DNA of 64,000 nt. Origin: Rickettsiales bacterium (GTDB lineage: Bacteria > Pseudomonadota > Alphaproteobacteria > Rs-D84). A program made the position numbers and the translations under genes. The DNA lies in contig JAISKV010000001.1 of NCBI GenBank assembly GCA_031260805.1, forward strand, positions 84,978-148,977, written 5' to 3'. Under the pieces are notes generated by a model. It saw nothing but the letters and a program-made list of their open reading frames with translations, was not told the DNA's origin and made no database searches. This document shows, piece after piece, positions 5,565 to 50,468 of this stretch (position 1 is its first letter; each line of letters begins with the position of its first letter).

Positions 5565-5856
5565 AAGGTGTAGGTGAAGGTGAATGTGAATGTGAAGGTG
5601 GTGGTGCAGGTGAATGTCATTCTCCATCGTCACCCCGGGCTGCGCCCCGGGGTTCATGGCTCAATGGATTCCGGGTTTCGCAGCACTCCCCCGGAATTAC
5701 GACGGGGTATGAATTCGGTACGAGAATGACAATGGGGCCAATAATGCAGGCCATCAAAATCCCCTTCGCCAAGCGAAGGGGTGGACGCCGCAGGCGGACG
5801 GGGTAGTGGTAATAAAATTTATAAAAACAACAAATGTCAAAAAATAGAGTGAATGA

Positions 5857-20652: not shown

Positions 20653-23600
20653 GTGTATAGAAAGATTTTGGCCGTTTTTGCGGCTTTATTTCCTGTATCC
20701 GGATTTGCGAATGTCATTTATCCAGGATATAACACCGGCGATTTAATCGGCACCGGCGTCGCGACTGGCGGCAACAGCGCGATAACAGCCGCGCCGAAGT
20801 GCACTGTTGTTGGCCAGGGTTTGCAGTGCGGCGGCGATTTTGTTGCAGGCTGGAATGTCGCAAGCGATTCAGGCGCCGGATTTCAATCCGGCGGCAGCGG
20901 AATTTACTTTGACCTGTCGTACGCGGGCGTCCCCGGCGTCCCCGTCCAACCGTATGCAATAAATAACGCTACTAATTTGGCCGGGTTTCCTGCAACCGGC
21001 GCGGCCAGCACATTATACATAGACACAGACACCGGTACCGCGTATGTTTGGAACGGAACGAATTACGCCGTTGCGACGCCGACGAATACTTTGGTGGCGG
21101 CGAACAAGTATCTGGTTGCCAATTCCAATTTGATTTATATTTGGGACGCGGGGTCAAACAAGTATATTGCGGCGACACTGCCCCAGGGGATTTATAACTC
21201 TTCGTCAATAACCAATATTGAAAATATAAATGTTGCTGGCAGTTTGTTGAACGAGCAGACGCTGATTCTGGCCCCCGGTGATCATACGAATGCGACCGAA
21301 GACCGGATTGCATGGATTGGCGGCGCGATTCTGAACGGAACGCTGGACGGGAAAACATTTGACGACAATGCCGGCGGCGGCGTCGCGAATTCAAGGCTGG
21401 TGGTGGAAGCGTCCGCAATCAGCGTCGGCGGCAAGATTATAACTGATAACCAAGGATATGCCAGCACGGCCGCGTTTCCTGCGACAGGTGCTCCGGGGGT
21501 GGTGTATACTGATAATTCCGACGGCCGCCAGTATACTTATGTCGGCGGATCGTATGTCGCATATGACGGCCGGTACACAGTCGCGATTCTTAATGCTGGT
21601 GAAAAAGTCATAACCGGGACGGCACTGGGCGGGCATACCAGCGTTGCGGATTCCGAATCGATGTCGCTGAAAACATTGAAGGGCGACATCACGCTGGGCG
21701 GCAGCGTTTGGAACAATGCCTATGTTGATGCATCAGGCAACATTGTCATTCGCGACGCGACAAATGCAGGCAGCGTGCAATTGGGGCTGGACAGCGCGGC
21801 GAATGTGAATATAACCGGCGATGTTGTGAATTTTGGCGGACACACGAATATCCGGGCGGGCCAGAATATTGCAATCAGCGGAAATGTTTCCACCAATTAC
21901 GGCACGGTAAATTTCTCGGCAATCGCAGGGCGGATTTTGATGGGCGATGTCGCAATCGGCGGGTCTTCGCAGTCCGCGGTATTTTCGCAAGTCGGAATCG
22001 GTGGGATTACCGCCGGGAACATTGATATTTCCAACGGATACATGACAGTCAGCGGGGCGGACTTTATAACGGTCGGAAATATTTCCAATACGACCGGTGT
22101 GGTGAACGCGATGGCGACCAGCGTGATTTCCGGTAAAAAATTAACCGTTGGCGGCATTGTCAATAATTCCAAAGTTGACATGAACCTGGCATCGGGCGGC
22201 GGATCGGATCTGGTTGTCGGCGGGAATATTTGGAACAACACGAATGACGGTCTGACGGCGTCGGATGCGACGGCGTCGCGCAACTATGGAAATCTGTCTT
22301 TGGCGTCAGCCGGCAATTTATCCGTATCCGGTGATTTGGTTAACTTTGGCAAGACCGCGATTTTATCCGCGGCCCAGGGAACAACGATAACCGGAAATAT
22401 CCTGAACGGATACGGCGCGATGTCGCTGGCGTCGGCTGCTGGGAAAATCCAGGCCGGCAACATTACGCAAACCGGCGGCGACAGCCTGGTCTTGACGCAG
22501 TCGGGAGTCGGCGGAATCACGGCCGTAAATGTTAACATAACGACCGGATACGCGCAGTTGAATGCGGCTGATTTCATGTCTGTCGGAAACATTTCCAACA
22601 CAACCGCGACCAGTTTGGCGAATAATACCAGTTTTATTACAGGCGCTGTATTGACTGCTGGCGACATTACACAAAATTCCGCCAATAAAATGGTTGTTTC
22701 GGCAGGCGGAAATATAACGGCGGGCCAGATTGCGAACACCACTGGCGTCATGGACATGACGACCGCGGCAAATGGAATTCTGAATGCTACGGGCGTAAAT
22801 GTCGCGGCGGGCCGCTTGACAATTGCGGGCGCGAACAGCCTGATGCTGGGGACCGGCGGATTGACAGTTTCTGGAAACGCGTATCTGAACGGCGGCGGAT
22901 CAACGACAGCCGGAGATCTGTATCTGACGAACAATGCGATGACAATTCAGACTGCGGGCGATATAGTCTTGGGCGGCGCGTTAAGCCTGGCGTCCGGAAC
23001 CGGACTGACAATCGGTACTGCGACAGGGGTTTATAAAACGGTGTCAATCGGCAGCATTTCCAACAACGGCGTGTTAAGTTTGCTGGATAGTTCATTTAAT
23101 ACAATCGGCGTTAGCGGCGCGATTACCAGCGGCGGCACCGCCGGAAACAATGCGTCTGTGTCTGCGTATTCTTATAACAGCGGCGGCGCGGCGGACAACA
23201 TAACGGTTGGCGGCACGATTACCAGCGGCCAGTATTCCAGCATAACGCTGGTTGCGGATGACAACCTGACGACCGGCGATGTTCTGTCCAATAATTCTTT
23301 GTCCGGCAATGTTTTGTTGCAGGCGAAAAATGCCAAAATCGCAACCGGAAATTTGCAGAACAATGCGGCGGCCGGAAAAACATTTGTGGCTGATGCGTAC
23401 GGCGATTTGACGATAACCGGAAATGTGAACAACACAGGGGACTTTATGCGGCTGACCGCGGGCGGCAATATCGCGGTTTCCGGCACGATGAAGAATGACC
23501 TGAACACCGGAAAATTATATATCGGGGCGACGGGCAAGGGCGGAACCAACATAGGGAACTTTGCATTGACGGGCCCCAGCGTTTCATCACTGACGATTTC

Positions 23601-26600
23601 CGGCGGCGATGCCAGCCATGCAGGACTGGAAAACAGCGGGACATTCTATGCGTTGGTGTCGGGCGCGACGACAATTGCGAACGGCGTCAGCATTGCGGCG
23701 ACCGCAACGGAGTTTTTCCTGGATACAGGAACGCTGTCCATGCCGTCCGCAGGCGCGAACGGATTGGAAAACCTGTTGCAGAACAAGATGAACTATTTCA
23801 CCATGATTGTGCGCAACGGCGATGTTTCCGGCGTTGGAATCACGAACGGAACGCGCAACGGGGCGACGGTTGAAAATGCAAGCGCGGCGATGCGGGTGGA
23901 AGCGGACAATATAGTTCTTGCCGATGCGGTAAAGAATGTCGGATCTGATTTGATATTGAAATCAGACGGCGCGACGGGAATAACAATTGGCGGGGTGCTG
24001 TACAACGGAACGCTGGATGGCGTTGCGGCGGTCGCGAACGCGGCGCAGAAAAATGCAAGTCTGACTGCATCCGGAACGATTTCAATCGCGGATACGGTCA
24101 GGAATTTCGGATATCTGGTTGTCAATGGGACGAATGCTGTGAACTTGGCTGCGATTGACAACAATGGCACCGCGCGGGTAGAGTCTTCATCCGCGGCCGG
24201 CGCGATTACAGGAACGACGATAACGAATAACGGAACGACAACCGGCGCGTGCAACGCGGGCGACGGTACAAACTGCGATTTGTATATCGTGGCCCGGGAT
24301 GCGAACTTTACCGGCGCATTTGCCAGCGGCAGCGGAAACGCGCTTATACAGACAACTAACAGCGCGGCGGTTGGCGGCGTATCGCTGACCGGCGGTCGGC
24401 TGGATATTGACGCGTACAACGGATTTGCATCAAACGGCGCGATTGCGGTGAATTCTGGCAGTCTGAATTTCAGCAGCAATACGACCACCGCGACCGCGAC
24501 AGGAAATGTCGCGACGGCCGGTGATATCAACGGCTGGCAGAGCGGCGTCGCAACCGGCGGCAGCATGAATTTCGCAATCGCGACCGGAAATACTGCGAGT
24601 TTCAGCACAACCGGGAATATTGCAGCCGGCGGCAACATTGTTGCGAACAGCGCGAATGCGATAACGCTGCAACTGAACGGGACCGGCGTTTCGGCGACCG
24701 GGGATATCTTGGCGCAGAACCGCGGCATCTTGAAGTTCGGCCCGTCCGTCGCCAGCATAACCGGAGAATTGATGAGCACGGACGCCAACGCGACGATTGA
24801 TTGGTCGGCGGTCGGCAGCGGCGCGACTGTTGCAATCGCGCAGTTGAACGATTTGGGCAAAGTCATTGCTGGCGGCGCGTCGCTGACAGCAGACGCGTCC
24901 GTTGACAACGCGATAAATATTGCGAATGGAGTTTTGATGAACGGCGCCACCAGCGGCGGTTTTAACATCCTGTCCAACAACTACACATTGCGCACGACGG
25001 GCGTAGGCGCGGATATCAAAATTGCTGCGAACGGCGTGAATGTCGCGGCATCCAAGACTTTGGCTCTGGACAGCGCGGACCGGATTGACATAACCGGCAC
25101 GACGACGAATGCCGGCGCGTTGACATACAACGCCTTGAATGAAATCGCGATTGGCGCGATTGCGAATACCGGAACGCTGAACGCTGCGGGCAAGTCTGCG
25201 ACCGGCGGAGCGGTTTCCAACACCGGCGGCGGGAACTTGAATATTGCGACGACAAACGGGGTTATAGCGTTCGGCGACTTTACAAACAGCGCGGCGGCCG
25301 TGCTGAATTCCGGAAATCAGAATACGACGCTGGGCGCTGTTGTAAACAATACCGGCGGCAATATAACACTGACGGCAAAGCAACTGAATGTGAATTCTAT
25401 CGCGTCCGCGGCGGCGTTCGTGGTTAATTCCGCGACGGTCGCGTCATCCGGCGCGATAACGGCGACCGGAAATTTGGGTCAAGACAGCGGCACCGGGACA
25501 TACGCGCTGCAATTCAAGACGAACAATCTGAATGTCGCAGCATCCGCATTGAATGTCAGTGGAAACTTTGTCGCGAATAACAATGCCGCGTCTTACACTA
25601 TTGCGAATGACGCGACCATAACCGGCGGCCTGACGATTGCCACGCCTGCGGAAACGCGATTGACATCCAGCACTGGAAACATCGCATCCGGCGTCATAAC
25701 CAACAACGGCAAGCTGGAACTTATTGCGACCGCCGCAGCCAAGAAAATAGCGACCGGCGCGATTTCCAATTCCGCGACCGGCGATCTGGCGATAAACACG
25801 ACGCGTTTGGAATCAGGCCTGGTTGCGAACAATGGCGTCGCCAATATAACAGCGGCGACCGCGACGGTTGCAGGATTGAACAATGCGGCTGGAAAAATGC
25901 GCCTGTCCGGTGGTTCGCTGGAATCAACTGGCGCGGTTTCAATCGTCGGCCAACTGGCCCAGAATCAAATCTGGAATTCATTCGCGGCCGGCGTTGACAT
26001 CATGTCAAATGATTACGCGATTAATTTGTCCGGGACGAACTCCGCATCGTCAACGCTCACGATTTCCCAAGGAATTGACCAGAATTCCGGCCTGATGACA
26101 TTAAAGACAACGGTGCTGAATATTACAGACGGCGGCATCGCCGCGAACGGCACTGTCCGGATTTCCGCGAATGATCACTCGTCGGATTCCGTGCCGGCAT
26201 CCGCCGCAGACCGCTATCCCTGGCTGACCGCGAATATCGTTGGCAATGTTTCCGAGAATGTTCAGTTCTTTGGCCTGTCCGATGCGACCATCAACGGAAA
26301 TTATGCGTTTGGCGATAATTCAATATTGTCTTTGGCCATATTGCCAAAGTCGGTGGAAAATTATTTTGCGACAGTATCGCTGGCGAACGACAACACTCTG
26401 GGCAATATAACAGATGATGCGGGCGGCACCAGCGCGATTGTCAATGTATCTGGCAAGTTCACGACGGATATAACGGGCAGCGTGTTCAGCCTGCCATCGT
26501 TGCCGGGACCGAACACCCCGCTGACAGCGGGCCAGGTTGGGTTTGTCTTGAACGATATCGTTGACGCGGGCACGGCGGTAAAACTGTTGCACGCGGACGG

Positions 26601-28086
26601 CGGTATCGAGGAAGACGGATTGCAAATGCGGAATTTGGTTGTCCGGTTTTGCAATGCGGACGGATCAAAGTGCTTTAATTATCTTGACGCGTTCCGCAAA
26701 ATGCCGGAAGATATCTTAACATCATCCAGCCCGCTGGCCGGATCAAATTCCAACAATGATCTGCCCGCGTACTTGACGCTGCGCGATACGGACGGCGATA
26801 ATGTTGCGGACACGATGTACGCAGTGTTTGACCCGCGCTTTGGCGGCCCGGTGGAAGTCTTTAAGATACAGCCGATTGTGGAAGCGGATCCGACGCACAC
26901 CCGGGGCGAGTACTTGTCCGCCGGCGCATTGGACGACATGGTGGAAGACGGCGTGCGCGACGCGGGATTTCACTTCCGCACACCGATAGAGGCGATCCCG
27001 GTCGTGTTCGCCGGGACGAATTTGCAAACCGCCGCGTCCGAACTGTACAACCGCATGGACCAGTATCAAATCGGCCGCGACAATGAAATATTGTCCCGTT
27101 TCAGCAAACTGTTCCAACAGCGCGAACTGGGCCAATTGTCCAACCAGATTAACTTGAACGAGCATGCGGTATTCCGCAGTTTCGAGAATCGCCTGTTCGA
27201 AGAATTGGATTGGGTGCGCAACCGCAGCCGCAACAAGTTCTGGGTTGACGCGGACTTTTCCAATTTCACGCACAGCGATTATGCGGGCGAAGCGGACATC
27301 GCGGGCGAACGGTTCAGCATTTCGTTCGGCGCGGACAAGCGCGTGTCGTCGGACCGCATCATCGGAGTTGCCGGACATGTAAACCAGTCTAGTTCCAACT
27401 TTACTGATACGATGAACCTGGGATACATGGGATGGGACATTGACGGCCGGGTCGTGACGGATGCGTCTGATCTGAACTTTGGCCTGGGCGCGTACTTTAT
27501 TGATACCCGCGGGGAGACATCAAAGATGTACGGGAACTTGTTCTTGGACATTCATTCACTGGAAATCAACCGCACCCAGAACTTTGTGAATCCGATTTCG
27601 GGCAGCGCGGTTTCTATATCATTGATAACCGAATGGGGAATCCTGCACGAACTGCTGGGCGAATATATTATTGGAAACGCGTACGCGCGCGGCGGGTACA
27701 ACTTTGGATTTGACATGACGACGCGGGCGGAAGCGGCCGATTACCAGAATCTGCAATCGCGCGGCTATGGAATCCTGACGCCCGGGTACAGCCTGCGGTT
27801 CCAGCGCAAGGTTTACACCAGCAACTGGCTGCAAATTCGTCCGCGCGTGGATGTCGGGCTAGAGTATGATCTGCTGGGCATCGGCAACGACGCGCAGTAT
27901 AAATTCGCGGTCGCGGACAATTATACCAAGTACAAGGTTGAAACCGATCCGTTGTGGATGAATGTTGGCGGCGGGATAGAGTTTGTCGCGGCGGATGGAA
28001 TTGGCGTTGCATTGGACTATAAATATTCGTACAATCAGGAAATGCGGGTCCACAATGTGAAAGTCGGCGGCCATTACAGGTTTTAG
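20653..28086 (+). CDS. Giant autotransporter-like surface protein (2477 aa)
   Basis: GTG start and signal peptide; repetitive Asn/Thr/Gly beta-helix-like passenger; C-terminal beta-barrel pattern (FWVDADFSNF...FSISFGADKR...VKVGGHYRF), final Phe. Confidence 0.85.
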   Translation: MYRKILAVFAALFPVSGFANVIYPGYNTGDLIGTGVATGGNSAITAAPKCTVVGQGLQCGGDFVAGWNVASDSGAGFQSGGSGIYFDLSYAGVPGVPVQPYAINNATNLAGFPATGAASTLYIDTDTGTAYVWNGTNYAVATPTNTLVAANKYLVANSNLIYIWDAGSNKYIAATLPQGIYNSSSITNIENINVAGSLLNEQTLILAPGDHTNATEDRIAWIGGAILNGTLDGKTFDDNAGGGVANSRLVVEASAISVGGKIITDNQGYASTAAFPATGAPGVVYTDNSDGRQYTYVGGSYVAYDGRYTVAILNAGEKVITGTALGGHTSVADSESMSLKTLKGDITLGGSVWNNAYVDASGNIVIRDATNAGSVQLGLDSAANVNITGDVVNFGGHTNIRAGQNIAISGNVSTNYGTVNFSAIAGRILMGDVAIGGSSQSAVFSQVGIGGITAGNIDISNGYMTVSGADFITVGNISNTTGVVNAMATSVISGKKLTVGGIVNNSKVDMNLASGGGSDLVVGGNIWNNTNDGLTASDATASRNYGNLSLASAGNLSVSGDLVNFGKTAILSAAQGTTITGNILNGYGAMSLASAAGKIQAGNITQTGGDSLVLTQSGVGGITAVNVNITTGYAQLNAADFMSVGNISNTTATSLANNTSFITGAVLTAGDITQNSANKMVVSAGGNITAGQIANTTGVMDMTTAANGILNATGVNVAAGRLTIAGANSLMLGTGGLTVSGNAYLNGGGSTTAGDLYLTNNAMTIQTAGDIVLGGALSLASGTGLTIGTATGVYKTVSIGSISNNGVLSLLDSSFNTIGVSGAITSGGTAGNNASVSAYSYNSGGAADNITVGGTITSGQYSSITLVADDNLTTGDVLSNNSLSGNVLLQAKNAKIATGNLQNNAAAGKTFVADAYGDLTITGNVNNTGDFMRLTAGGNIAVSGTMKNDLNTGKLYIGATGKGGTNIGNFALTGPSVSSLTISGGDASHAGLENSGTFYALVSGATTIANGVSIAATATEFFLDTGTLSMPSAGANGLENLLQNKMNYFTMIVRNGDVSGVGITNGTRNGATVENASAAMRVEADNIVLADAVKNVGSDLILKSDGATGITIGGVLYNGTLDGVAAVANAAQKNASLTASGTISIADTVRNFGYLVVNGTNAVNLAAIDNNGTARVESSSAAGAITGTTITNNGTTTGACNAGDGTNCDLYIVARDANFTGAFASGSGNALIQTTNSAAVGGVSLTGGRLDIDAYNGFASNGAIAVNSGSLNFSSNTTTATATGNVATAGDINGWQSGVATGGSMNFAIATGNTASFSTTGNIAAGGNIVANSANAITLQLNGTGVSATGDILAQNRGILKFGPSVASITGELMSTDANATIDWSAVGSGATVAIAQLNDLGKVIAGGASLTADASVDNAINIANGVLMNGATSGGFNILSNNYTLRTTGVGADIKIAANGVNVAASKTLALDSADRIDITGTTTNAGALTYNALNEIAIGAIANTGTLNAAGKSATGGAVSNTGGGNLNIATTNGVIAFGDFTNSAAAVLNSGNQNTTLGAVVNNTGGNITLTAKQLNVNSIASAAAFVVNSATVASSGAITATGNLGQDSGTGTYALQFKTNNLNVAASALNVSGNFVANNNAASYTIANDATITGGLTIATPAETRLTSSTGNIASGVITNNGKLELIATAAAKKIATGAISNSATGDLAINTTRLESGLVANNGVANITAATATVAGLNNAAGKMRLSGGSLESTGAVSIVGQLAQNQIWNSFAAGVDIMSNDYAINLSGTNSASSTLTISQGIDQNSGLMTLKTTVLNITDGGIAANGTVRISANDHSSDSVPASAADRYPWLTANIVGNVSENVQFFGLSDATINGNYAFGDNSILSLAILPKSVENYFATVSLANDNTLGNITDDAGGTSAIVNVSGKFTTDITGSVFSLPSLPGPNTPLTAGQVGFVLNDIVDAGTAVKLLHADGGIEEDGLQMRNLVVRFCNADGSKCFNYLDAFRKMPEDILTSSSPLAGSNSNNDLPAYLTLRDTDGDNVADTMYAVFDPRFGGPVEVFKIQPIVEADPTHTRGEYLSAGALDDMVEDGVRDAGFHFRTPIEAIPVVFAGTNLQTAASELYNRMDQYQIGRDNEILSRFSKLFQQRELGQLSNQINLNEHAVFRSFENRLFEELDWVRNRSRNKFWVDADFSNFTHSDYAGEADIAGERFSISFGADKRVSSDRIIGVAGHVNQSSSNFTDTMNLGYMGWDIDGRVVTDASDLNFGLGAYFIDTRGETSKMYGNLFLDIHSLEINRTQNFVNPISGSAVSISLITEWGILHELLGEYIIGNAYARGGYNFGFDMTTRAEAADYQNLQSRGYGILTPGYSLRFQRKVYTSNWLQIRPRVDVGLEYDLLGIGNDAQYKFAVADNYTKYKVETDPLWMNVGGGIEFVAADGIGVALDYKYSYNQEMRVHNVKVGGHYRF

Positions 28087-30256: not shown

Positions 30257-30475
30257 TATTACCACTACCCCGCCGTTACGCGGCACCCCTTCCCCGGGCC
30301 CCGCGAAAAACGAAGTTTTTCGTGGGTGGGTCCCAGCGAAGGGGATTTGTCCCGACTTCGTTTCAATAAATATAATTTTATTGTGTGGCACAAGCCAAGT
30401 AATTCCCCTTCGCTTAGTGAAGGGGTGGCATTACGCCGAAGCGAAGCGTAGGCGGATGACGGGGTAGTGGTTCAT
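30257..30475. repeat. Family B MITE-like element
   Basis: ACCACTACCCCG...CCCGACTTCGTTTCAATAAAT...CCCCTTCGCTTAGTGAAGGGG...GACGGGGTAGTGGT. Confidence 0.85.
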
Positions 30476-31532
30476 GATTTCCAGTCCAAAAAACGCCGTA
30501 ATAATTATATTGACAAAGTTATTATTTTGTGTAAATATGTATCGCCGCATAACCCAAGGGGGCAGTGATATGGGAATATTTTGGAATAAAGAGATTAAAT
30601 TAAAACAGCCGGGAATTTCAGAAATAGACCGCTGTTTGTCAATCATACGCGATGATAATTGTGAGAGATATGCAGAACATTCGGCCGCGTATACATGGAT
30701 CACGGAAAATATGAATATTTTCCGGGCTGTCCAGCCCCAGGATAAAAAGGTTCTGGCTGTGTGCGCGGGGGGGGGTGATTCGTCTTTATTTTTCCGCGCG
30801 GCGGGTGCGCAATCCGTTGATGCCTTTGATGTGTCGCTGTTTCCGAAATATGCGGCAGAGTTAAAGTACGCAGCACTGCGCCGATTTAATCGCGAACAAT
30901 TCTTGAAATTTTATAGAATTGATGATTTTGATTTTGCGCAGGAATCCGGTCAATTATTCGCGCCATCGGGATATCGCAAACTTCGTAATGATTTGTCTGC
31001 CGATGCGCGCCATCTGTTTGATAAATGCGCGAAAAGCAGCGATCTGTGCAGCAAAATTCTGTCTCCGTTCGGCAAATATCGTTTGGAAGAAAACGAGTAT
31101 CTGCAAGACAGTGATGGGTACGAAATTTTGCGCCGCGCCGCAATGGACGGAAATCCGAACTTTATATGGTCGGACTTGAATGAATTGCCGCATCATTTGT
31201 CAGATTCTTATGACATAATTTACTTGTCAAACATTCATGCATTAATGTGCCATGATACCAAGCGCAAGGTTGCGGAATTGCGCGCATTAAAGAGACACCT
31301 GAATCCTGGCGGCATAATTATGGCAAATTATTTTTACAGCGTTGTTGAAAATTCATGGTCGCGGGATTTTGCGAAATCAATCAGGATTTATGGCGATATG
31401 AATGGAAAAATGGGCCAGTACGCGCCATACAAAAATGAAAGGTATGGGATGATGGAAGAATTTATGAGATTATTCCTTGATATGCGCGCATACGACATCC
31501 AAGTTATTTTGGACAAAGAAAATCTGAAATAA
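30474..31532 (+). CDS. SAM-dependent transferase, DUF3419/BtaA-like; contains a G9 tract
   Basis: KKVLAVCAGGGDSSLFFRAAGAQSVDAFDVSLFPKYAAELKYAALRR..REQFLKF; later LSNIHALM and LNPGGIIMANY; start may be internal (MGIFWNKE). Confidence 0.7.
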   Translation: MISSPKNAVIIILTKLLFCVNMYRRITQGGSDMGIFWNKEIKLKQPGISEIDRCLSIIRDDNCERYAEHSAAYTWITENMNIFRAVQPQDKKVLAVCAGGGDSSLFFRAAGAQSVDAFDVSLFPKYAAELKYAALRRFNREQFLKFYRIDDFDFAQESGQLFAPSGYRKLRNDLSADARHLFDKCAKSSDLCSKILSPFGKYRLEENEYLQDSDGYEILRRAAMDGNPNFIWSDLNELPHHLSDSYDIIYLSNIHALMCHDTKRKVAELRALKRHLNPGGIIMANYFYSVVENSWSRDFAKSIRIYGDMNGKMGQYAPYKNERYGMMEEFMRLFLDMRAYDIQVILDKENLK

Positions 31533-31810: not shown

Positions 31811-31976
31811 ACCACTACCCCGTCAGCGGCTGCGCCGCTGCCACCCCTTCGCTTAGCGAAGGGGAATTATCCCGACTTCGTTTCAATAAATGTTGTTTTA
31901 TTGTGTGGCATAGGCCGTCAAATTCCCCTTCGCTAAGCGAAGGGGTGGACGCCGCAGGCGGACGGGGTAGTGGTGA
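31811..31976. repeat. Family B MITE-like element (full copy)
   Basis: ACCACTACCCCGTC...CACCCCTTCGCTTAGCGAAGGGG...CCCGACTTCGTTTCAATAAATGTTGTTTTATTGTGTGGCATAGGCC...CCCCTTCGCTAAGCGAAGGGGTG...GACGGGGTAGTGGT. Confidence 0.9.
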
Positions 31977-32026
31977 ATCAGACATTCATACTTGACAAAT
32001 CAGTATGTTTGTATTAAATTTCCAGC

Positions 32027-33073
32027 ATGAAGCGCAAAGAACAAAAACCTTTGATAAGTGTAATTATCCCTGCATACAATATTGAAAAGTGGATCGCGCC
32101 ATGCGCTGCTTCGCTGTTCGCGCAGAAAATGTTCAAGGAAACCGAGATTATTTTTGTTGACGACGGCAGCACTGACAACACCGGACGCGAGATTGAAAAA
32201 GTCTACAAACGCGCAAAAAAGAATGTTGTCATATTAAAAAATCAACGAAATTACGGCGTGTCCGCCGCGCGAAACCAAGCGATTGATGTTGCGCGTGGGG
32301 GGGGGATTATGTTCCTGGACGGGGATGATGAAATTGGTTATAATACCAATCACTCGTTTGATACCGGGTATCTTGGAAAATTCTGGGCCCCGCTGACCAA
32401 TCCTGAAATCAGGTCGGACATCGTTATCGGAAATATTGTTCAAGCCGGCGACAAGCGGGACTTTGCATTCAATCAATCCGCTATTTATGAAAATCACATT
32501 GTATCCGATACAATCAAATTGCTGAAATATGTGAACCGGCGCGTCAGCGCGTGCGCCACGCTTTATAATGCCGACACGATAAAATCACACAATCTGAAAT
32601 TTGACACAAGTCTTACTTATTTCGAGGACACCAGTTTTATTTCCAACTATATTCTGAAAATGCGGGGAAATTGCGCGGTATTTATTTCAGACGCAATTTA
32701 CAAATACAATTATCGCGCAAACAGCGCGATGCATCGCCTGAAATCACACAGCGAAGAAGAAATGCGCCGGTTGACATACATCAATAATCAGATGATTTAT
32801 TATCTGAAAATGATTGACTCGTGCGAGAAAAAGTTCGGACCCAGATCGCTGCCCGTACAGTTGTTCATGCAGAAAATGACCAAGAAACGCCGCGATATCA
32901 TAGAATTTTCGGAAAAATATCCAAATTCAAGGGATTTTTATTTATCGTTCTTGCAGTATTTGCCGGATGTTTGCCGCGGCTGTAATAAGCGGGGCTGTGA
33001 TAAATGCAAAGATTATGATTCGGAAAGAATGCTGATAACCGGCATCAGTGATCGGTTGTTGCGGGTAAAATAA
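32027..33073 (+). CDS. Family 2 glycosyltransferase; contains a G9 tract
   Basis: PLISVIIPAYNIEKWIAPCAASLFAQ...EIIFVDDGSTDNTG...NYGVSAARNQAID.ARGGGIMFLDGDDE. Confidence 0.93.
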   Translation: MKRKEQKPLISVIIPAYNIEKWIAPCAASLFAQKMFKETEIIFVDDGSTDNTGREIEKVYKRAKKNVVILKNQRNYGVSAARNQAIDVARGGGIMFLDGDDEIGYNTNHSFDTGYLGKFWAPLTNPEIRSDIVIGNIVQAGDKRDFAFNQSAIYENHIVSDTIKLLKYVNRRVSACATLYNADTIKSHNLKFDTSLTYFEDTSFISNYILKMRGNCAVFISDAIYKYNYRANSAMHRLKSHSEEEMRRLTYINNQMIYYLKMIDSCEKKFGPRSLPVQLFMQKMTKKRRDIIEFSEKYPNSRDFYLSFLQYLPDVCRGCNKRGCDKCKDYDSERMLITGISDRLLRVK

Positions 33074-33624: not shown

Positions 33625-33790
33625 CGCGGCAAAGCCGCTCTGCGACCCCGCCCCAAAACGCCATCGGCGTTTTGGGGTGGGGTAATTGCAATCATGTCGC
33701 TGGCCCCGGTCCCAAATGACGATTTTGCCCTTGCAATCCGATTCGTTTTCTTGCTAAACTCACTGTAAATAAAATAAAGGTTTTTTGCAA

Positions 33791-34369
33791 ATGTCTGTCG
33801 GAACATGGAATAAAATAACCCTCCAAAAATTAAAGACGCTGGTTGACCGCGGCCTGTCCACTTCGGAAATCGGCAAAAAACTGGGTATGACCAAGAATGC
33901 TATTGTTGGAAAATTAAACCGGCTGGGCTGGAACGCAAAAAGCATCGCCGCTGTCCCGCCTGCCAAGTCCGCGGCGCGTCCTGTAAAAAAAACGCCGGTC
34001 CCGGCAAAAAAAACTGCCGCCGCCGCGCCCGCATCAAAAAAGAAGCCCGCACAAACGCCGATCAAGCCGGCCCCGGCCAAATCCGCCAAGCCTGCTGCAA
34101 CGGCAAAATCCGTAAAATCTGAACCGGCGCGCGCGACTGCCAAGGCGGCCGCCCCGACCCCCGCGCCGCGGACCAATCCAAAAGCACAAAAAAATTCAGT
34201 TCGGCACACGCTGGCCATCGCGAACTTGAAAAGCGACCAGTGCCGCTGGCCGATCGGAAATCCGGACGGCGATGACTTTCACTTCTGCGGGGCTAAGATT
34301 TTCCCGGGCAAGCCTTACTGCTATGATCACTGCTTGCAGGCGTATCAATTCATGCCAAAGAAAAAGTGA
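33791..34369 (+). CDS. gcrA: GcrA cell-cycle regulator
   Basis: WNKITLQKLKTLVDRGLSTSEIGKKLGMTKNAIVGKLNRLGW; C-terminal CRWPIGNPDGDDFHFCG. Confidence 0.95.
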   Translation: MSVGTWNKITLQKLKTLVDRGLSTSEIGKKLGMTKNAIVGKLNRLGWNAKSIAAVPPAKSAARPVKKTPVPAKKTAAAAPASKKKPAQTPIKPAPAKSAKPAATAKSVKSEPARATAKAAAPTPAPRTNPKAQKNSVRHTLAIANLKSDQCRWPIGNPDGDDFHFCGAKIFPGKPYCYDHCLQAYQFMPKKK

Positions 34370-41420: not shown

Positions 41421-42638
41421 TTATTTTTTCTCAAATTTTCTGGCGCGGTCCGTCAGTTGCGCGTGCATGTCAAAGTTGCTGGCGCGGCCCAGATCCACGA
41501 TGTAATCCAGATATTCCAGATAGTCAAAGCCGAAATCTTTTTCATCAAAGATAAAATTATTGTCCTTGAAAAACTGGCGCGTGAACGGCGTGTCGCCGAC
41601 CATGTGCGGGCAGAAATTCTGCTGCGTCGTGCTGTATTTCCAGACATCGCGCGATGCGGAGATGTAAGTGGCGTTGATTTTCTTTAATTGATTCAGCGCG
41701 CATTGCCGGCCGTTTCCTTCCATATGTCCGCGCTCGAACACCAGCAGTTCCGCGCCGTCCCTCATAAACATTGAAAAGTGCAGCAGCGTTCCCTGGACGC
41801 ATGCCAGGCTGTCCGCATCCATGACGACGCGGATTTGATCTGCAAACGACATTGTTTCCGGATAGATGACAGTGTACCCGTTTTTCGCAAAAATTCCTTC
41901 CAGCGATTTTTCGCCGAAAGTCATGATGCCTGCTTTCAGCCGGGTGCGCGACAGGTAAACTTTTTTTATCGGAAACTTTGGCTTGCCCCCCCCCGCGCGG
42001 ACTTTGTCAACGATGCGGTTGTAAATGTCGCGCATCAGCGGATGGACATAGTGCGTCTTGCCGGGAAACCGATTCGCAAAGTTATAAAACTGCGCCGGCT
42101 GGATCACAAAAACAGTGTCAAAAGAAACAGGCTTGTGTATGAACAGGATTCTGTCCAGCGGGATTCCGAACAGCGCGACGATATTTGCGAATTTCCGCGC
42201 GGCTTCCGTTTCCAATAAAAACGCGATTTTTTTATCCCTATACTTTTCATCCAGCAGCGGCCACAGGTACGACAAGACATCGGTCAGAATATGTCCGAAA
42301 TGATTCGGCATTGATCCGCAGTAAATCACATCTTCGCCCATGTGCGGAATTTTTCCGCCGTTGTCGCCAACCTGCTTGTCCAGCGTCGCGCGGTCCGGCG
42401 ACACCAGCAGCGTTCCGCGCGTGATGAATACCGATTCGGCGACTAGCTGCTTGTTTGCGTCAAACACGCCGCCGGCCGCGGTTTCGTTCTGCTTTAATAC
42501 CGCATAAGGTGCGATGATGCCCTTTGGCACAGCCTTTATTTCCAATGGCTCGGTCCGGATATAATCAATGATTGCGTTTTTATCAAACCATTCGCGCATG
42601 TCCGGATTGTATTTGTAAAAGTCTTTTGGCAATTGCAT
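41421..42638 (-). CDS. Glycosyltransferase family 61 (DUF563-like); contains a G9 tract
   Basis: NHFGHILTDVLSYLWPL; KKVYLSRTRLKAG; SFADQIRVVMDADSLACVQGTLLHFSMFM. Confidence 0.85.
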   Translation of the reverse strand: MQLPKDFYKYNPDMREWFDKNAIIDYIRTEPLEIKAVPKGIIAPYAVLKQNETAAGGVFDANKQLVAESVFITRGTLLVSPDRATLDKQVGDNGGKIPHMGEDVIYCGSMPNHFGHILTDVLSYLWPLLDEKYRDKKIAFLLETEAARKFANIVALFGIPLDRILFIHKPVSFDTVFVIQPAQFYNFANRFPGKTHYVHPLMRDIYNRIVDKVRAGGGKPKFPIKKVYLSRTRLKAGIMTFGEKSLEGIFAKNGYTVIYPETMSFADQIRVVMDADSLACVQGTLLHFSMFMRDGAELLVFERGHMEGNGRQCALNQLKKINATYISASRDVWKYSTTQQNFCPHMVGDTPFTRQFFKDNNFIFDEKDFGFDYLEYLDYIVDLGRASNFDMHAQLTDRARKFEKK

Positions 42639-49760: not shown

Positions 49761-50468
49761 TTATGCCAGATTCAGAAAATCTTTCAATACTGCATCCGGA
49801 CGATCAATATTTTGGTTGATTTCCAGATTAGAATCAACAATCGGGGCAGCGGATTGCGCTGTATCGCCGCAGTATGCGGCCAGGTCGGGTTTTATCGTAT
49901 CTTCGCTGACGCCGTCTATTAATCCATTTGTGCAACCCAATGATTGTGAAGCAGAGTTATTTTGCAGTTCGCAATTAATCGCGCCGTGTCCGCCAACACA
50001 ATATTTGGCGAGCAATGCCCCCCCCTGATCCAAGGTGTTGGTAAATTCGGCAGACCGCTTGTTAATTTGTCCCCGTTCTGTTTCAGTCAAAGCGGCGGAT
50101 ACGGGTTGCTGTGTATTGGTCTGGACTGGTGTGTGGGCAACCGTGGTGGTGGTTGGCGTTGTGGCGACCCCTTTTTTCCGGGCATCGTACGCATTGTCAA
50201 TCTGCTTTAATTCAGCGCAGAATGTTTTATTGTTATCTTTGCCAGCGCCTTCGTTATCGCAGGTATCCTTGGTCAACAGGTCTTTTGCACCGCCGCCAAC
50301 AGTCTTGGCAGCATTGCTAATCGCGCCGCCGGCTGTTTTGGCCGCGCCGCCAAGTCCCGACATAGCCCGTTGAATCAGGTTTGGTTTTTGGGCTGGCGTG
50401 GTGTCTTCGGCACGCGCAACCGGTAAAATTAAAAGATAAAAGATAAAAGATAAAAATATTTTCTTCAT
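49761..50468 (-). CDS. Secreted hypothetical protein; contains a G8 tract
   Basis: Signal peptide MKKIFLSFIFYLLILPVARA. Confidence 0.7.
   Translation of the reverse strand: MKKIFLSFIFYLLILPVARAEDTTPAQKPNLIQRAMSGLGGAAKTAGGAISNAAKTVGGGAKDLLTKDTCDNEGAGKDNNKTFCAELKQIDNAYDARKKGVATTPTTTTVAHTPVQTNTQQPVSAALTETERGQINKRSAEFTNTLDQGGALLAKYCVGGHGAINCELQNNSASQSLGCTNGLIDGVSEDTIKPDLAAYCGDTAQSAAPIVDSNLEINQNIDRPDAVLKDFLNLA

Follow-up and report, generated by a model that had tools for sequence, protein, structure and literature searches.

Among the described systems of phase variation, Campylobacter jejuni is the closest to the one considered here: as exemplified by Cj1295 (PMC3068675), its in-gene G runs are mostly 9–10 bases long, many loci are found in a small genome, glycan-modification genes are among the hosts, and the reading frame is switched by changes of a single base, all of which is also seen or predicted in the present case. 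The slippage bias in C. jejuni, with insertions at G8 and deletions at G11 or longer, holds the tracts mainly at G9/G10, and the tract length profile of the genome analyzed here resembles the profile reported in the same study (PMC8355987). The differences are that C. jejuni is devoid of functional mismatch repair (PMC8355987) whereas here the genes for MutS and MutL are present and open, that the two lineages are unrelated, and that switching in the present case is predicted from sequence. The second group of comparable systems comes from Neisseria, where the poly-G tracts of phase-variable genes are found in coding sequences as well as in promoters (phasome study PMC5953494), hmbR/hpuAB being cases with poly-G inside the ORFs (PMC3786947). 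As in Neisseria, tracts are found here inside genes and, among the relatives of this genome, also between the -35 and -10 elements, but the genes and the lineage are different, and the tracts are known from sequence rather than from a strain series. In the open-licence literature searched, no description of poly-G switching came up for this bacterial group; the paper on Ca. Enterousia/Rs-D84 (PMC12306168) contains no mention of homopolymers and uses ‘phase' only in an unrelated sense. The most likely reading of the locus analyzed below is that of a phase-variable glycosyltransferase belonging to a well-known class; for this lineage, no earlier description was found.

The window, that is, the entire 64,000-nucleotide stretch of DNA that was analyzed, encompasses a gene for a 348-amino acid GT2 glycosyltransferase (32027..33073, + strand; PF00535, E-value 8.6e-27, 94.6 bits against a cut-off of 23.3). 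The original prediction that a G tract lies just upstream of the DxD region of this gene, in the ON frame, holds in full: exactly nine G occupy positions 32297..32305 on the + strand, the codons CGT GGG GGG GGG ATT are in frame, with the tract encoding Gly91–Gly93, and the 348-codon ORF is open. The DGDD motif follows shortly after, at residues 98–101, within the FLDGDD stretch (the DxD-type metal/donor motif), the aspartates of which are invariant in the 12 aligned sequences. Loss of one G yields a product of 122 amino acids and gain of one G a product of 100 amino acids, neither of which retains an intact DGDD. The sugar transferred by this enzyme may end up on the cell surface, as the original prediction envisaged. 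The evidence at the tract itself comes from one genome of its genus.

Alignment of the GT2 protein with 11 homologs from the same family (28–37% identical) shows that the homologs have the consensus A-x-G-x-x-[IVL]-M-F at the site of the tract, in which the first glycine is invariant and, in the homologs, encoded by GGA, GGC or GGT, and the two residues that follow it vary (ST, KN, ET, QT, RY, KK); one of the 11 homologs has one residue fewer at this site. The tract-encoded residues directly precede the M-F-[LVI]-D-[GS]-D-D strand. As was also predicted, the tract replaces residues that are otherwise encoded without poly-G: none of the 11 homologs has a G run at this site, or a G or C run of at least 7 bases anywhere within the gene. 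The solved GT2 relatives, namely chondroitin synthase (2z87), GalT1 (5hea) and TagF (3l7i), share with the window protein the GT-A N-terminal domain with DDGSTD and the A-x-G-x-x-I-x-F-x-D-x-D-D stretch. Unlike these enzymes, the window protein has Gly-Gly, encoded by part of the G9, in the two otherwise variable positions and, in common with the family homologs, a distinct C-terminal half with a cysteine-containing tail.

The length of this tract is not a matter of chance. The contig that contains the window (186,599 bases, 51% GC) has 95 G/C runs of length 5, 13 of length 6, two of length 7, one of length 8, and 10 of length 9 or more. Among 200 codon shuffles of the genes of this contig, which keep both the proteins and the codon usage, in-gene runs of 9 or more bases occur 0.92 times on average (maximum 4), compared with the 6 observed. 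In contrast, shorter in-gene runs are depleted relative to the same shuffles (90 versus 210 for 5 or more bases, and 15 versus 48 for 6 or more), so that short G runs are avoided whereas those past about 8 bases are retained or lengthened. When the window is instead subjected to a plain dinucleotide shuffle, the result is less extreme: there are 7 matches of eight bases compared with 1.5 on average, and one of the 100 shuffles reaches the observed number. The same shape of the run-length distribution, with a gap at 7–8 and an excess at 9 or more, is found in the tract-selected loci of another genus of the family, g10.

The genome as a whole (729 kb in 15 contigs, 93.5% complete) contains about 26 tracts; prior to corrections, there are 29 run starts of 8 or more bases, which include two artefact-looking ones at the end of contig C3, and the end of contig C8 and the start of C3 may represent a single locus. 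Two of the tracts are 8 bases long, eleven are 9 and three are 10, with one or a few at each of the other lengths up to 27. Many of the hosts are glycan or envelope genes (GT2, GT61, a WbsX/RgpF-type glycosyltransferase, PAP2 and a YadA-type adhesin), and others are collagen-like, lysozyme-TPR, PIN-domain and transposase-like genes; yet, in-frame G9 tracts are also found in ligA, a dCTP deaminase-like gene and other housekeeping-type genes, so that the host classes are mixed. In ligA (NAD-dependent DNA ligase; L049, G000:C6:17247-17255), the tract lies in a loop just before LEIRGEV. One G10 tract (L071) is out of frame, and removal of one G would open a coherent C-terminus. Two surface-type genes at the ends of contigs C14 and C15 (L070/L072) share a 140-base 5' part that is 98.6% identical and runs up to a poly-C tract (run lengths C15 and C9), beyond which the sequences differ; the shared part could be a common leader, or the tract could be a recombination joint. 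The contig breaks do not prove length polymorphism: contigs C14 and C15 end 140 bases past the tracts, in the shared sequence. Loss of mismatch repair is likewise rejected as a simple cause of the tracts, given the open MutS and MutL genes, and therefore, slippage rates may be nearer to those of repair-proficient bacteria than to those of C. jejuni.

Several further tracts are located in the window. The gene next upstream of GT2 (30474..31532, + strand; likely start at 30537) is methyltransferase-like, with a match to DUF3419 (E-value 3.1e-07) and weak methyltransferase matches, and is in the ON frame; its G9 tract (30767..30775, + strand) lies in a glycine-rich loop of the SAM-binding type, VCAGGGDSS, and the slipped products, counted from the first listed start, consist of 129 (G8) and 101 (G10) amino acids. 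Homology of this gene to the G9-bearing methyltransferase-like gene of G171, a g10 genome, is unsupported (E-value 0.16); the two are alike only in that the tract of each lies in a Gly-rich loop. A GT61 glycosyltransferase gene, 9 kb away from GT2 (41421..42638, - strand; 405 amino acids, ON frame; PF04577, E-value 3.2e-13), contains a G9 tract at 41986..41994 (- strand; C9 on the + strand), with slipped products of 223 (G8) and 360 (G10) amino acids. A possible further member of the set is the G8 at 50018..50025 (- strand), in a 235-amino acid ORF without a Pfam match (49761-50468, - strand). The window also includes a 2,477-amino acid repetitive adhesin-like ORF (20653-28086) with an autotransporter-like look of the C-terminus and without a Pfam match, and an ORF at 33785-34369 that we take to be GcrA-like, which points to Alphaproteobacteria.

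The intergenic space between the methyltransferase-like gene and GT2 is packed with palindromic repeats such as CCACTACCCCGTC, which is dispersed on the + strand of the window at 31812, 36356, 39244 and 52352 and, as the reverse complement, at 5797, 30458, 31961, 39409, 46807 and 53975, and is also present in the end sequence that contigs C14 and C15 have in common. Promoter-like elements precede both genes: TTGACA-16-TAAATA before the methyltransferase-like gene (30510-30537) and TTGACA-16-TTAAAT just 5' of the GT2 start codon (31992..32019, + strand; 31992-32027 when counted to the start). Both stop at the start codons or at most 8 bases from them, which suggests that the two messages may be leaderless.

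Comparison across 183 genomes of the family, which range from about 0.5 to 1.1 Mb and are dominated by one genus, as would fit GTDB Rs-D84 with Ca. Enterousia (PMC12306168), shows that the number of tracts of 9 or more bases differs widely, with 0–4 in the majority of species in g2, the largest genus, 27 run starts in the present genome and 17–43 in some genera, although part of this spread may reflect base composition, which is not the same in all the loci seen. The clearest indication that, in this family, sugar-transfer genes are turned off by tract-length differences of a single base comes from the GT92/GT2_4-type glycosyltransferase genes of g10, rather than from the window GT2. In these genes, a G run immediately follows the IDLDEFLV motif: G172 has a G9 and the gene is whole, whereas the two copies in G171 have a G10 and continue only in another frame. 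At another locus (L187:1345-1353, G170:C2), a G9 immediately precedes the stop codon of a GT2 gene, and the next GT2 gene, read in a different frame, stays open through this position, so that gain or loss of one base could join the two enzymes or separate them. The C10 tracts in two surface-type genes of G171 (L195:2017-2026 and L203:1961-1970) are both out of frame and are followed by the identical C-terminal sequence LxxASRWVGADG...SSQKDAGFDK. In-frame G9 tracts of g10 also occur in ORFs that match the DNA polymerase III alpha and orotate-pathway families.

The tracts of the relatives are not confined to genes. Spacers between -35-like and -10-like elements contain 11 of the 141 distinct tracts (those of the fetched loci, not a random sample), compared with 1.2% of random positions in the same loci; the ligA tract, one of the 11, is a chance hit because it is inside a gene and the -35 is mismatched. 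In L152, L156, L164, L167 and L219, from genera g10 and g12, G9–G12 fill the spacer between TTGACA and a -10-like element 5' of ORFs, the one behind the L219 tract having a signal peptide and the look of an outer membrane protein. A homolog of the window GT2 in genome G162 (L083) has a G8 in the spacer of TTGACA-16-TACACT 5' of its start; among the GT2s of the present genome that entered the comparison, it is matched best by the window GT2, although this set did not properly cover the GT2 of contig C5.

These observations have to be weighed against the main alternative, which differs from a switch in rate and selection, namely, that replication and repair in this lineage let G runs beyond about 8 bases persist or expand wherever loops tolerate glycines or prolines, so that the GT2 tract slips slowly, OFF cells are lost and no switch has been selected. 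The G9 tracts in ligA and other housekeeping-type genes imply that some tracts may indeed be such tolerated passengers, and the cost of slippage at G9 must be bearable, given that the same length is found in ligA, where OFF cells should die. Hence, a length of G9 alone does not prove that a tract is an adaptive switch. Further points on this side are that the Gly-Gly of GT2 falls on two variable residues and that slippage bias without selection could alone produce the length distribution. This explanation is nevertheless unlikely because sugar-transfer genes are over-represented among the g10 hosts, with about 5 GT2-type ORFs among 46 tracts in G171 and G172, compared with 19 GT2 ORFs among roughly 1,500 genes (P about 2e-4, a rough estimate), and because passengers would be expected neither to fill promoter spacers nor to appear at two different places in homologs of the same GT2 gene.

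The two remaining alternatives have far lower probabilities. Stuttering of RNA polymerase, as discussed for long homopolymers in Buchnera (PMC2831843), would produce mixed-frame messages, with the tract tuning the dose instead of switching the cell, and would also soften the cost of the ligA tract; given, however, that such a mechanism cannot operate on tracts between -35 and -10, and that the sequence data carry no sign of mixed messages, it is highly improbable. Even less credence is due to a miscount of the run through assembly or sequencing error. Some contig ends of this assembly do carry implausible runs with degraded tails, such as the G34/G63 at the end of C3, which looks like an artefact because the homologous sequence in C10 has C20 there; but the GT2 tract is well inside a 187-kb contig, in a full-length, in-frame gene, and eleven tracts in this genome have exactly nine bases. 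A miscount would normally have broken the frame.

The reading we favor, with a probability of roughly 0.7, is that the GT2 tract is a simple-sequence contingency locus, that is, a phase-variable sugar-transferase gene that is currently ON; the frame switching envisaged in the original prediction is well supported by the tracts across the genome and the family. Under this scenario, strand slippage during replication would add or remove one base of the run. With nine G (or twelve, etc.), the 348-amino acid enzyme would be made, whereas with eight or ten, the frame would shift in or just after the glycine run, and the short product would lack, along with the intact DGDD, the acceptor half. Provided that slippage is frequent, as seems probable, the population would be a mix of cells ON and OFF for this sugar transfer, the OFF cells presumably differing in phenotype and the glycan presumably being on the surface, and independent switching of the G9 tracts in the methyltransferase-like and GT61 genes could generate several glycan types. 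The points against a switch are the single length at which this tract is seen, in the one genome of its genus, the tract-free gene in the 11 closest homologs, the G9 tracts in housekeeping genes, and the open MutS and MutL genes, which may lower slippage.

At the level of the family, the chances appear about even that these uncultured alphaproteobacteria with reduced genomes maintain a large set of poly-G switches in genes and -35/-10 spacers while keeping mismatch repair genes and accepting G9 even in essential genes, with one GT2 family having acquired tracts repeatedly: one genus has its tract in the promoter, another just 5' of the catalytic DxD. Existing metagenome reads suffice to check the prediction of switching, with no need for culture, and the G9 in ligA provides a natural test of the slippage load that an essential gene can bear. 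If the switch reading is correct, a very small alphaproteobacterial genome devotes about two dozen sites to random switching, and several of these lie in glycan and adhesin genes; this would suggest that host immunity, phages or partner cells exert a strong and variable pressure.
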